The position numbers and the translations under genes are program-made. The notes under the pieces are model-generated. The model did not search any database. It was not told where the DNA came from and saw only the letters and a program-made list of their open reading frames with translations. Below are positions 22,109 through 24,257 of a DNA stretch of 37,237 bases, piece after piece (position 1 is the stretch's first letter; each line of letters starts with the position of its first letter). Origin of the DNA: Oscillospiraceae bacterium (lineage in GTDB: Bacteria; Bacillota; Clostridia; Oscillospirales; CAG-272); the NCBI GenBank assembly GCA_015064315.1, contig SVSL01000011.1, positions 1 to 37,237 on the forward strand, written 5' to 3'.

Positions 22109-23437
22109 TCAAATCCGGACCATTGCGCCGTCCTCTCTGTATTCGATGCGGTCACCTGCATCCCGGAGAGAATCGATGAAGCTGAGGTATTCTTTGGACG
22201 TTTGGAACATCGGTTGAAAGTCTGCCAATATCTGCTTTGCACGGCAGGCATCATTTTCAAGCAGGAGACGTAGCATGGCAAGCTGCCACTTGGCATTGTC
22301 CACACAAGCCTTTTGCGGATCGCTGATTGTATAGTTGTTTCCGTGACTGGTTCCCGTACTGCCCGCGCAATAAGGATGTATCACGGGCATAATACATCCA
22401 AGGTCTCCCATATCCGTGCTGCCCGTGCTCTTGCAGGGGGATTCGGTCATGGTTTCATTGGGCAGAATTTGTGCGAATGCATCTTTTGCGAGCGCGATCA
22501 TGCCGGGATCGTTGTTGAGAGGCGCGTAGCCGGGGATATCCACGATCTCTATATTGGCACCAATCGAGAGTGCTGCACCCACAAGCGCGCGGTTTACCTT
22601 TTTGTTGGCGGCAAGGATCGCATCAAAATCGGCTCCGCGCACGTAGCTTTCCAGGCGAACGTTTTCGGGAATGGCGTTGACCATGTCTCCGCCGGATGTA
22701 ACGATGGGGTGAACGCGGATCTGGTCCTTCTCTTGGAAGGTTTCACGAATCGCATTGATCGCGTTCAGCCCACAGTTGGCGGCATACAGCGCGTTGATGC
22801 CTGCGTGGGGAGCTCCGCCCGCGTGAGCCGACTTCCCTTTATAAGTAATGTTTTTCGCAACCATGCCAACCGCTCCCTGCCGTATGAGAAAGCTCGAAGC
22901 GGTGTGCACCATAAAGGCAATGTCTACTCCATCAAAATATCCGCGTGCGAGAAATTCGCATTTGCCTCCCAAATAACGAATTTTTCCAGCCTTGATCAGC
23001 TCACGGCGATATTCAATTTCCAAAAGCTCCTCTGCGGGAACGGCGCATAGACGGATTTTTCCGCAAAGACCGTCCAGCATGTGAGGCTCCTTGAGTGCCG
23101 CAGCAATTCCAAGCAGGGTAGCGCTTTGTGCATTGTGACCGCAGGAATGTACCGCACCGGTTTCGGGATCGGCGTCCTTGTGGGTAGGGCAGATGATGGA
23201 GTCCAGCTCGCCCAAAATCATGATCTCGGGCCCTTTGCGTCCGGTATCAATTACGGTGTAAAAGCCTGTGATCCCTTCTGCCATTACAAGTGTATAGCCC
23301 AAGGCTTTGTATTGCTCGGCAAGATATGCGGTGGTTTTCCATTCTTTATATCCTGTTTCGGGATTTTTCCAAAGATAACGCTCGGCATCCAAAATCAGTT
23401 GCTTGTGCTTTTCTACGGCCTGAATGATTGTTTGCAT
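22109..23437 (-). CDS. M20-family amidohydrolase (AbgB-like peptidase)
   Basis: A 442-residue zinc amidohydrolase of the M20/M20D group. Metal-site segments visible are ILGELDSI, HSCGHNAQSATLLG, VPAEELLEIE (catalytic Glu) and MVHTASS. The dimerisation domain (GKSAHAGGAPHAGINAL) is in the middle. CGHN rather than CGHD resembles the AbgB subgroup, which cleaves aminoacyl-aryl amides such as p-aminobenzoyl-glutamate; other N-acyl amino acids are possible. ATG 23437 follows AAAGGA by 9 nt, and longer starts would overlap the promoter. Gene order on the minus strand is this gene then putP, each with its own promoter. A weak hairpin at 22071-22084 may end the transcript. Confidence 0.85.
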   Translation of the reverse strand: MQTIIQAVEKHKQLILDAERYLWKNPETGYKEWKTTAYLAEQYKALGYTLVMAEGITGFYTVIDTGRKGPEIMILGELDSIICPTHKDADPETGAVHSCGHNAQSATLLGIAAALKEPHMLDGLCGKIRLCAVPAEELLEIEYRRELIKAGKIRYLGGKCEFLARGYFDGVDIAFMVHTASSFLIRQGAVGMVAKNITYKGKSAHAGGAPHAGINALYAANCGLNAINAIRETFQEKDQIRVHPIVTSGGDMVNAIPENVRLESYVRGADFDAILAANKKVNRALVGAALSIGANIEIVDIPGYAPLNNDPGMIALAKDAFAQILPNETMTESPCKSTGSTDMGDLGCIMPVIHPYCAGSTGTSHGNNYTISDPQKACVDNAKWQLAMLRLLLENDACRAKQILADFQPMFQTSKEYLSFIDSLRDAGDRIEYREDGAMVRI

Positions 23438-23474
23438 TTCGGTGTTGTCCTTTCGAAAATAATTTCTTGGTTTT

Positions 23475-23503
23475 ATTATACTATAAATCGTGATATTCGT
23501 CAA
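23475..23503 (-). promoter_or_regulatory. Promoter of the M20 amidohydrolase gene
   Basis: On the minus strand: TTGACG (23503-23498), 17 bp, TATAAT (23480-23475). One mismatch from consensus. Confidence 0.8.
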
Positions 23504-23552
23504 CATGCAATGCAATAAAATTTAATTGCGCAAAGCTCGGGCTGTCATTCAT

Positions 23553-23862
23553 TACCGCGTCGCTTCAAGTCCCTATTCAAACTAAAAAATCACGGCAAAG
23601 CCGTGAATGGAATCCGCAGCTTGCTGCGGTAGGTTTTCAAGTGAAATATTCGGCGTTGCCGAATGTGAAATAATTTCCTTTGGAAATTGTGAAATATTGC
23701 TCCTTCGTCGCAATGTGAAATGAAATTTGCCCACATTCGCGTCAGCGAATATTTCACATTTGCGGAGCAAATATTTCACAGCGAAGCTATTTCACTTGCC
23801 CGCAGGGCAAATTTCGTTGAAAAAAGCACACATTTGTCCGGTAGACAAATGTGTGCTTTTTT
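23553..23862. repeat. Hairpin-array repeat, copy 1 (310 bp)
   Basis: A non-coding unit built from consecutive small hairpins, each with a 6-7 bp stem and usually a 2-4 nt loop: 23590-23606, 23614-23629, 23648-23664, 23672-23688, 23696-23714 (a 5-bp stem with a longer loop), 23735-23750, 23758-23772 and 23796-23810, ending in a 19-bp stem at 23820-23862. In the first half the hairpins are separated by the heptamer GTGAAAT (23641, 23665, 23689, 23715); in the second half by its reverse complement ATTTCAC (23751, 23773, 23789). The whole unit can therefore fold as a branched cruciform. GAAATTTGCCC (about 23722) can also pair with GGGCAAATTTC (about 23805). Reading frames inside it are by-products of the palindromes. 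Confidence 0.9.
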
Positions 23863-24171
23863 TACCGCGTCGCTTCAAGCCCCTATTCAAACTAAAAAAT
23901 CACGGCAAAGCCGTGAATGGAATCCGCAGCTTGCTGCGGTAGGTTTTTAGTGAAATATTCGGCGTTGCCGAATGTGAAATAATTTCCTTTGGAAATTGTG
24001 AAATATTGCTCCTTCGTCGCAATGTGAAATGAAATTTGCCCACATTCGCGTCAGCGAATATTTCACATTTGCGGAGCAAATATTTCACAGCGAAGCTATT
24101 TCACTTGCCCGCAGGGCAAATTTCGTTGAAAAAAGCACACATTTGTCCGGTAGACAAATGTGTGCTTTTTT
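23863..24171. repeat. Hairpin-array repeat, copy 2 (309 bp)
   Basis: A direct tandem copy of the preceding unit, starting at the same TACCGCGTCGCTTCAAG. By eye it differs only by one substitution (AGTCCC to AGCCCC) and a short change with a 1-base deletion near the first GTGAAAT. Its final 19-bp hairpin (24129-24171) with T6 directly abuts the 3' end of tRNA-Leu and would act as the tRNA's terminator on the minus strand. Near identity of the copies points to recent duplication or gene conversion. Confidence 0.9.
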
Positions 24172-24172
24172 C

Positions 24173-24257
24173 TGGTGCGGGAAACGGGACTTGAACCCGT
24201 ACGGTGTGAACCACACGCCCCTCAAACGTGCGCGTCTGCCAGTTCCGCCACTCCCGC
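24173..24257 (-). tRNA. tRNA-Leu (anticodon GAG)
   Basis: An 85-nt class II tRNA on the minus strand. The acceptor stem GCGGGAG pairs with the 3' TCCCGC side, and the CCA end is encoded. The D-arm is TGGCGGAACTGGCAGACGCG, typical of leucine tRNAs. The anticodon stem CACGT/GCGTG closes the loop TTGAGGG, giving GAG (codons CUC/CUU). A variable arm follows, then the T-arm ACGGG-TTCAAGT-CCCGT. Its promoter is at 24289-24316, and transcription runs into the last hairpin of the repeat array. Confidence 0.96.

Follow-up and report, generated by a model that had tools for sequence, protein, structure and literature searches.

The DNA analysed here, a contig of 37,237 nt from an Oscillospiraceae bacterium (hereafter the window), carries what we read as a tandem pair of non-autonomous repeats, each an inverted, hairpin-spaced array of the heptamer GTGAAAT that appears to sit beside a tRNA gene, behind its terminator-like hairpin. 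Such arrays go with genes of S23/IVP four-helix-bundle proteins, with solitary arrays dispersed elsewhere. Our preferred explanation, to which we assign a probability of roughly 55%, is that the heptamers are recognition sites of the IVP protein and that the hairpins space them. The association between arrays and IVP genes is strong; binding and movement are what we infer.

Architecture of the tandem units

As the first-pass annotation had described, the window holds two copies of about 310 bp. They span 23553-23862 and 23863-24171, are 309-310 bp long and match at 99% over the whole unit, with two large repeat blocks of 86 and 228 nt that are 99% identical. Each copy contains four GTGAAAT heptamers followed by three of the inverted form ATTTCAC, with palindromes between them, and the sequence bears out the accompanying claim that the spacer is constant while the stem sequences differ. 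The left ~74-88 bp of each unit lie outside the GTGAAAT array. A three-heptamer pattern gave six matches in the window and none in 100 dinucleotide shuffles. The genus set of 35 genomes, to which that of the window belongs, has the pattern in 16 and its reversal in none.

Read on the plus strand, each unit starts with a 37 bp segment and two hairpins with an ATGGAAT spacer, followed by the P-half, GTGAAAT-hairpin-GTGAAAT-hairpin-GTGAAAT-hairpin-GTGAAAT. After this come the arm GAAATTTGCCC, a hairpin and the series ATTTCAC-hairpin-ATTTCAC-hairpin-ATTTCAC, and the unit closes with a last hairpin, ATTTCGTTG and a terminator-like hairpin. Long-range pairing of GAAATTTGCCC with GGGCAAATTTC of the last hairpin is possible. 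In unit 1 the left flanking segment, outside the heptamer array, occupies 23553-23589; when unit positions 1-74 were used as a query against the same genome, only the two window units matched at E ≤ 0.001. The hairpins at 23590-23606 and 23614-23629 enclose ATGGAAT at 23607-23613, and this pair (23590-23629) is likely the remnant of a different array, as is, by analogy, the corresponding stretch of unit 2 with its ATGGAAT spacer (23900-23939). By eye, the pair in unit 1 is similar to arrays of the TATGGAAT/ATATCAT class that adjoin IVP genes at three other loci (L309, L320 and L308).

The P-half of copy 1 lies on the plus strand at 23641-23721, with GTGAAAT at 23641, 23665, 23689 and 23715 and three hairpins between, and that of copy 2 at 23950-24030 on the same strand (heptamers at 23950, 23974, 23998 and 24024). 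GAAATTTGCCC at 23722-23732 (plus strand) is the 5' arm of an inverted repeat that forms the long-range stem with 23805-23815. The T-half, on the minus strand, occupies 23751-23795 in copy 1 (ATTTCAC at 23751, 23773 and 23789, two hairpins between) and 24060-24104 in copy 2 (24060, 24082 and 24098). The last hairpin (TTGCCC-GCA-GGGCAA in copy 1) and the right end ATTTCGTTG follow on the plus strand at 23796-23819 and 24105-24128, and the terminator-like hairpins at 23820-23862 and 24129-24172. The second of these is flush with a minus-strand tRNA-Leu gene (anticodon GAG, 24173-24257) whose 3' end points toward the element; the left neighbour of the units is a minus-strand M20 peptidase gene (22109-23515).

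The near-identical pair is best read as the outcome of one recent local event that duplicated remnant, element and terminator in tandem, and since a single such event explains it, gene conversion need not be invoked. The pair may instead be an assembly artefact, against which it can be said that the two copies differ at a few positions and that other contigs carry further copies.

Relation to Gut-1 and copies in the genus

The first-pass annotation had called the design unlike the REP/BOX elements it knew. The design is not new, however: each half matches the Rfam family Gut-1 (RF01706): with the covariance model, the window gave four matches of 53.1-65.6 bits against a gathering threshold of 50, on the plus strand for the P-halves (23639-23726 and 23948-24035) and on the minus strand for the T-halves (23746-23819 and 24055-24128). 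Weinberg et al. (PMC2864571) describe Gut-1 as a motif of the human gut only, present in environmental sequences only, and most likely a noncoding RNA. The window halves share with it GUGAAAU between hairpins; the difference is that Gut-1 is here one half of an inverted, many-copy element, with sister families that use other heptamers. Each half is thus already known as an Rfam motif, and what goes beyond Gut-1 is the link to IVP genes and the lineage-specific heptamer.

There were 22 Gut-1 matches in the window's genome, 13 of them over the cut-off, and 16 of the 22 formed eight inverted pairs. This is the layout of a repeat, and a dispersed element is accordingly the likelier identity than a gene for an sRNA. 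Within the genus, 31 of 35 genomes had any match and 24 of 35 one over the cut-off. Scanned de novo, 254 fetched loci yielded constant spacers including GTGAAAT, ATGATGT, GTGATAT, ATGAAAT and GTGAAGT, among others, and none in shuffled sequence; these loci overlap and were fetched for such arrays, so that their counts are not rates. The window's genome has about 11 GTGAAAT arrays, together with two further classes of solitary array for which no cognate IVP gene was found in an assembly that is 81.5% complete.

Stem covariation

Many dispersed copies with compensatory stem changes, the outcome that the first-pass annotation had named in favour of a functional mobile or structured element, were indeed found: besides the 22 Gut-1 matches, the stems covary. 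From 120 array clusters, 38 elements could be oriented, of which 36 were used for the tRNA counts below and 21 complete elements for covariation. In these 21, all 152 cells of the two T-half hairpins were Watson-Crick pairs, and a position could show as many as four pair types. For the first two P-half hairpins the figure was 240 of 252 cells, and for the third, under simple end-inward pairing, 96 of 126. Changes in the long-range arm are matched in its partner and in the local arm, as in TTGCCC, TCGCC, AAATCC and ACGCC. The proposed branched folding is possible, both strands as RNA folding more stably than any of 200 shuffles (z -7.0 and -5.8).

Inserts between like heptamers, for eight spacer words, formed a hairpin in 386 of 546 distinct cases, compared with 397 of 5000 random sequences by the same lax test. 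Among 326 distinct GTGAAAT inserts, 31 were hairpin words that occur with several neighbours, which may reflect either shuffling or divergence. In one genome (G021), three hairpin words stand in differing orders between GTGATAT heptamers in four arrays (contigs C4, C9, C45 and C57), as if modules had been shuffled at the heptamers.

IVP genes beside arrays in the genus

The window's genome contains four matches to the 23S_rRNA_IVP family (PF05635, an S23-type four-helix bundle), on contigs C14, C27, C42 and C65, and none on the window's own contig (C40). Two of the four, on C27 and C42, adjoin sister copies of the GTGAAAT array. Across the genus we found 62 matches in 24 of 35 genomes, 56 of them over the cut-off. 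Setting aside three in the wrong frame (L276, L317 and L318) and four with less than 150 nt upstream leaves 55 loci, and at 48 of these an array, hairpin-spaced or tandem, lies upstream by a 6-mer or a period-7 criterion; the automatic test found no heptamer signal at the other seven. A 6-mer recurring at least five times within 300 nt upstream was present at 42 of 54 loci. For comparison, the criterion was satisfied in 1 of 56 cases by downstream flanks, in 1 of 43 and 2 of 51 by far flanks, in 1 of 1110 by shuffles and in 31 of 935 by control windows, the last figure including the window's own arrays and other array-holding loci.

Among the loci listed, one arrangement often seen by eye runs from a tRNA through terminator, array and promoter to the IVP gene, and a tRNA gene lies on the same strand within 600 nt upstream of the IVP gene in 29 of 47 cases. 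A search for cargo genes between paired arrays covered three proteins, from C42 and from contig C24 of another genome (G020), and gave no Pfam match. The open-access literature matches listed contained no link of IVP proteins to heptamer or hairpin arrays or to a lineage-specific heptamer. At one locus (L045, 5966-6445), where the IVP gene adjoins a GTGAAAT array, the end of that gene is overlapped by an ORF that contains a WapI-like immunity domain (PF24716).

At five loci (L269, L280, L303, L305 and L314) the arrays upstream of IVP genes have the spacers GTGATATA, GCGATAT or TCGATAT and come, by eye, after the apparent 3' end of one conserved gene, which we take to encode an RlmCD-like methyltransferase. 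This suggests that the 3' end of that gene is a second preferred array site.

IVP loci beyond the genus

PF05635 was present in 25 of 119 genomes of the phylum, the window's own among the 25, and in 25 of 30 genomes behind loci with a GTGAAAT triple, a choice of genomes that is biased. Outside the genus, period-7 repeats adjoin about half of the IVP genes sampled, and many of these genes have tandem heptamers with no hairpins. Scoring a period as present at 16 or more of 21, and leaving out one of 30 loci of other named genomes that fell below the cut-off (L398) and one of a duplicate pair among 29 phylum loci, we found period 7 upstream at 13 of the 28 phylum loci and at 10 of the 29 named-genome loci, and downstream at 7 of 28 in either set. 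Other periods (14, the double of 7, aside) occurred upstream at 2 of 28 phylum loci, for period 11, and at no more than 2 of 29 named-genome loci. At L357 and L359 the repeats upstream of the IVP gene have period 11 instead of 7. IVP gene bodies showed period 7 in 0 of 27 phylum, 0 of 29 named-genome and 1 of 55 genus cases; far flanks in 2/28, 2/28, 0/28 and 0/28; shuffles in 1 of 1120; and windows from unrelated loci in 0 of 935. The automatic test saw a heptamer signal on neither side at 13 of the 28 phylum loci and at 13 of the 29 named-genome loci. Where a period-7 signal was two-sided, the flanks shared more 7-mers in inverted than in direct order at 11 of 15 loci.

Seven phylum loci were scanned with Rfam. 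The IVP gene lay inside a 23S rRNA gene in four, where the best upstream period was 7 and two loci reached 18/21, and in one further locus (L360, 1229-2003) within a gene for RNase P RNA of class A (RF00010), again with period-7 repeats upstream. By eye, hairpin-spaced arrays adjoin the IVP gene at two Akkermansia loci, and a Microcoleus genome has heptamer arrays on both sides of its IVP gene.

The heptamer follows the IVP lineage

An IVP tree was built from 52 of the 62 genus matches, 49 of which carry heptamer labels read by eye from the loci listed; its columns are few and its branches long. The 49 labelled proteins have 21 heptamers, which require 21 changes on the tree, compared with a mean of 38.9 and a minimum of 35 in 200 shuffles. 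Heptamer distance tracks protein distance (r 0.33, permutation p 0.0025), and close lineages differ by one letter (ATGATG/GTGATGT, GATGAAATC/GTGAAATC and TATGGAAT/TATGTAAT). Part of this match reflects common descent, since array and IVP gene are physically linked. The joint change of the heptamers within one array is beyond what linkage alone explains.

Position beside tRNA genes and dispersal

In 22 of 36 elements the 3' end of a tRNA points at the array from 56-71 nt past its last exact heptamer; at the opposite end this was seen in 0 of 32. The right end is flush with a hairpin of at least 7 bp in 28 of 36. The tRNAs next to solitary arrays cover 14 different amino acids.

Away from IVP genes, six genomes with a GTGAAAT-type IVP have 19, 5, 7, 4, 20 and 9 matches to the GTGAAAT pattern and the other 29 at most four each, counted after near-IVP matches had been subtracted by hand and with several matches possible per array (p 2.4e-5, a value that ignores kinship among genomes). 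The equivalent comparison for the GTGATAT pattern and its cognate IVP was not significant (p 0.066); two genomes to which no cognate IVP was assigned have 14 (G015) and 10 (G002) GTGATAT matches. In the window and at L308 and L213 the GTGAAAT element abuts, by eye, hairpins of another class, which suggests that GTGAAAT elements insert beside existing hairpins.

Alternative explanations

That the arrays encode a noncoding RNA (the Gut-1 sRNA), for instance a sponge displaying GUGAAAU between hairpins in the manner of CsrB, seems improbable on our analysis. CsrB is a sponge RNA whose displayed motif is GGA, and here the constant linker is GTGAAAT. Such an RNA would account for each half passing the Rfam threshold, for variable hairpins alternating with a constant motif and for the stable RNA folds. 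The copy number and inverted pairing described above speak against it, and because the halves are inverted a transcript of the whole element would hold both motif and anti-motif. The element, moreover, begins behind a terminator-like hairpin and often ends, by eye, at an apparent promoter. Selection on an RNA would favour G-U pairs, and the stems show no such excess on the heptamer (Gut-1) strand, with 2192 Watson-Crick, 10 G-T, 25 A-C and 107 other cells; read on the opposite strand, there would be a modest lean in its favour, of 25 G-T to 10 A-C. We regard it as doubtful, too, that the array is a cis-acting insulator or regulator of the adjoining IVP gene, acting in autoregulation, with solitary copies left as remnants after gene loss. 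The 48 of 55 upstream arrays agree with such a role, as do arrays that extend, by eye at the loci listed, nearly to the ribosome-binding site. The window's genome, however, has about 11 GTGAAAT arrays for its four IVP matches, two of which stand beside such arrays; solitary arrays lie next to tRNA genes of many specificities; and in other genomes repeats flank the IVP gene on both sides.

The tagged palindromes, their dispersal as inverted doublets and the modular arrays would also fit an element of the REP/REPIN kind that a RAYT (Y1 transposase) or a reverse transcriptase mobilises, with the IVP gene a mere passenger, and array-rich genomes do contain two Y1_Tnp matches (G020) and one RVT_1 match (G007). 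In diversity-generating retroelements the IVP-like protein Avd acts together with a reverse transcriptase. Partner genes of either kind are nevertheless not supported, as neither tracks the arrays, and we consider this explanation very unlikely. In counts that rest on incomplete genomes, Y1_Tnp is over the cut-off in 5 of 35 genus genomes and absent from array-rich G000 (the window's genome, 81.5% complete), G007, G011, G013 and G015; RVT_1 occurs in 8 of 35 and is absent from array-rich G011, G013, G015 and G020. In the window's genome the search for a reverse transcriptase yielded only a 50-position RVT_1 match, which is not on the window's contig, and this speaks against membership of the diversity-generating retroelements.

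Comparison with known repeats

REP/REPIN elements with RAYT, as described in PMC3733652 (see also PMC3116915), have tagged palindromes, inverted doublets and a partner gene at the repeats. The arrays resemble these in being dispersed tagged palindromes with inverted doublets and a partner gene beside them, but neither REP tag, GTAG or CGTC, was found at the palindrome foot, the spacer being GTGAAAT or a lineage variant; the stems are variable, and no Y1 transposase was found in the window's genome. The logic of the element is like that of REP/RAYT, yet it is outside that family.

With the intervening sequences of 23S rRNA the arrays beside IVP genes share the PF05635 protein family, complementary ends and heptamers next to the gene. 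The window element differs in lying by a tRNA gene, in having hairpins between the heptamers and in carrying no gene of its own, and Rfam gave no rRNA match within the window. STRRs of cyanobacteria are tandem heptamers; they have no hairpins, unlike the window arrays, but recall the Microcoleus IVP gene flanked by heptamer arrays and the same-phylum IVP gene inside RNase P RNA. In Coxiella, according to PMC4990558, tandem GACAGAT heptamers lie directly upstream of the S23p start in the intervening sequence. A title in the references of PMC2858038 reports STRR heptanucleotide repeats inside RNase P RNA genes.

A proposed role for IVP proteins

We return to the reading in which IVP proteins recognise the heptamers. 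A protein-binding role, which the first-pass annotation had listed among several, is made likely by the IVP link, the binding itself being deduced. The IVP protein most likely recognises single-stranded heptamers, as DNA or RNA, one per subunit, perhaps in a ring geometry comparable to that of the ring protein TRAP. The solved IVP relatives PDB 2rld and 2gsc have five chains each, and PMC4990558 describes the X. campestris protein as a toroidal homopentamer. The hairpins would be interchangeable spacers that keep the heptamers unpaired, and in other arrays nothing would stand between them. Recognition of the heptamers would allow the array to be copied or maintained, and insertion would be favoured next to terminator hairpins. 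Weighing against this reading are the GTGATAT comparison, which fell short of significance, the solitary arrays of two classes for which the window's genome yielded no cognate IVP gene, and the IVP loci at which the automatic test saw no heptamer signal.

More tentatively, at somewhat less than even odds, IVP proteins, a family long lacking an assigned function, may in general be sequence-specific binders of heptamer repeats with a lineage code, which drive or maintain widespread selfish repeats that include Gut-1 and perhaps the cyanobacterial STRRs. On the same reading, tandem heptamers, 23S rRNA and RNase P insertions and hairpin-spaced arrays would form one selfish class. If so, three orphans, namely Gut-1 RNA, the S23/IVP family and intergenic heptamer repeats, would become one testable system, and the existence of intervening sequences within 23S rRNA, and within RNase P RNA, would gain a possible rationale.

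The tRNA-Leu site in relatives

At the tRNA-Leu sites of 16 relatives, blastn found no copy of the M20 peptidase gene that lies left of the window element, a result that lends synteny no support, and arrays of other classes were nearby, by eye, in three (L413, L420 and L424). At L417, L419 and L420 the tRNA-Leu region seems, by eye, to be present in several degenerate copies in tandem, among which terminator-like hairpins recur. In the window itself, a ZMP/ZTP riboswitch (RF01750, 24527-24607) precedes a pyruvate formate-lyase-like gene (PF02901 and Gly_radical), a pairing that the family name 'pfl motif' suggests is ordinary.
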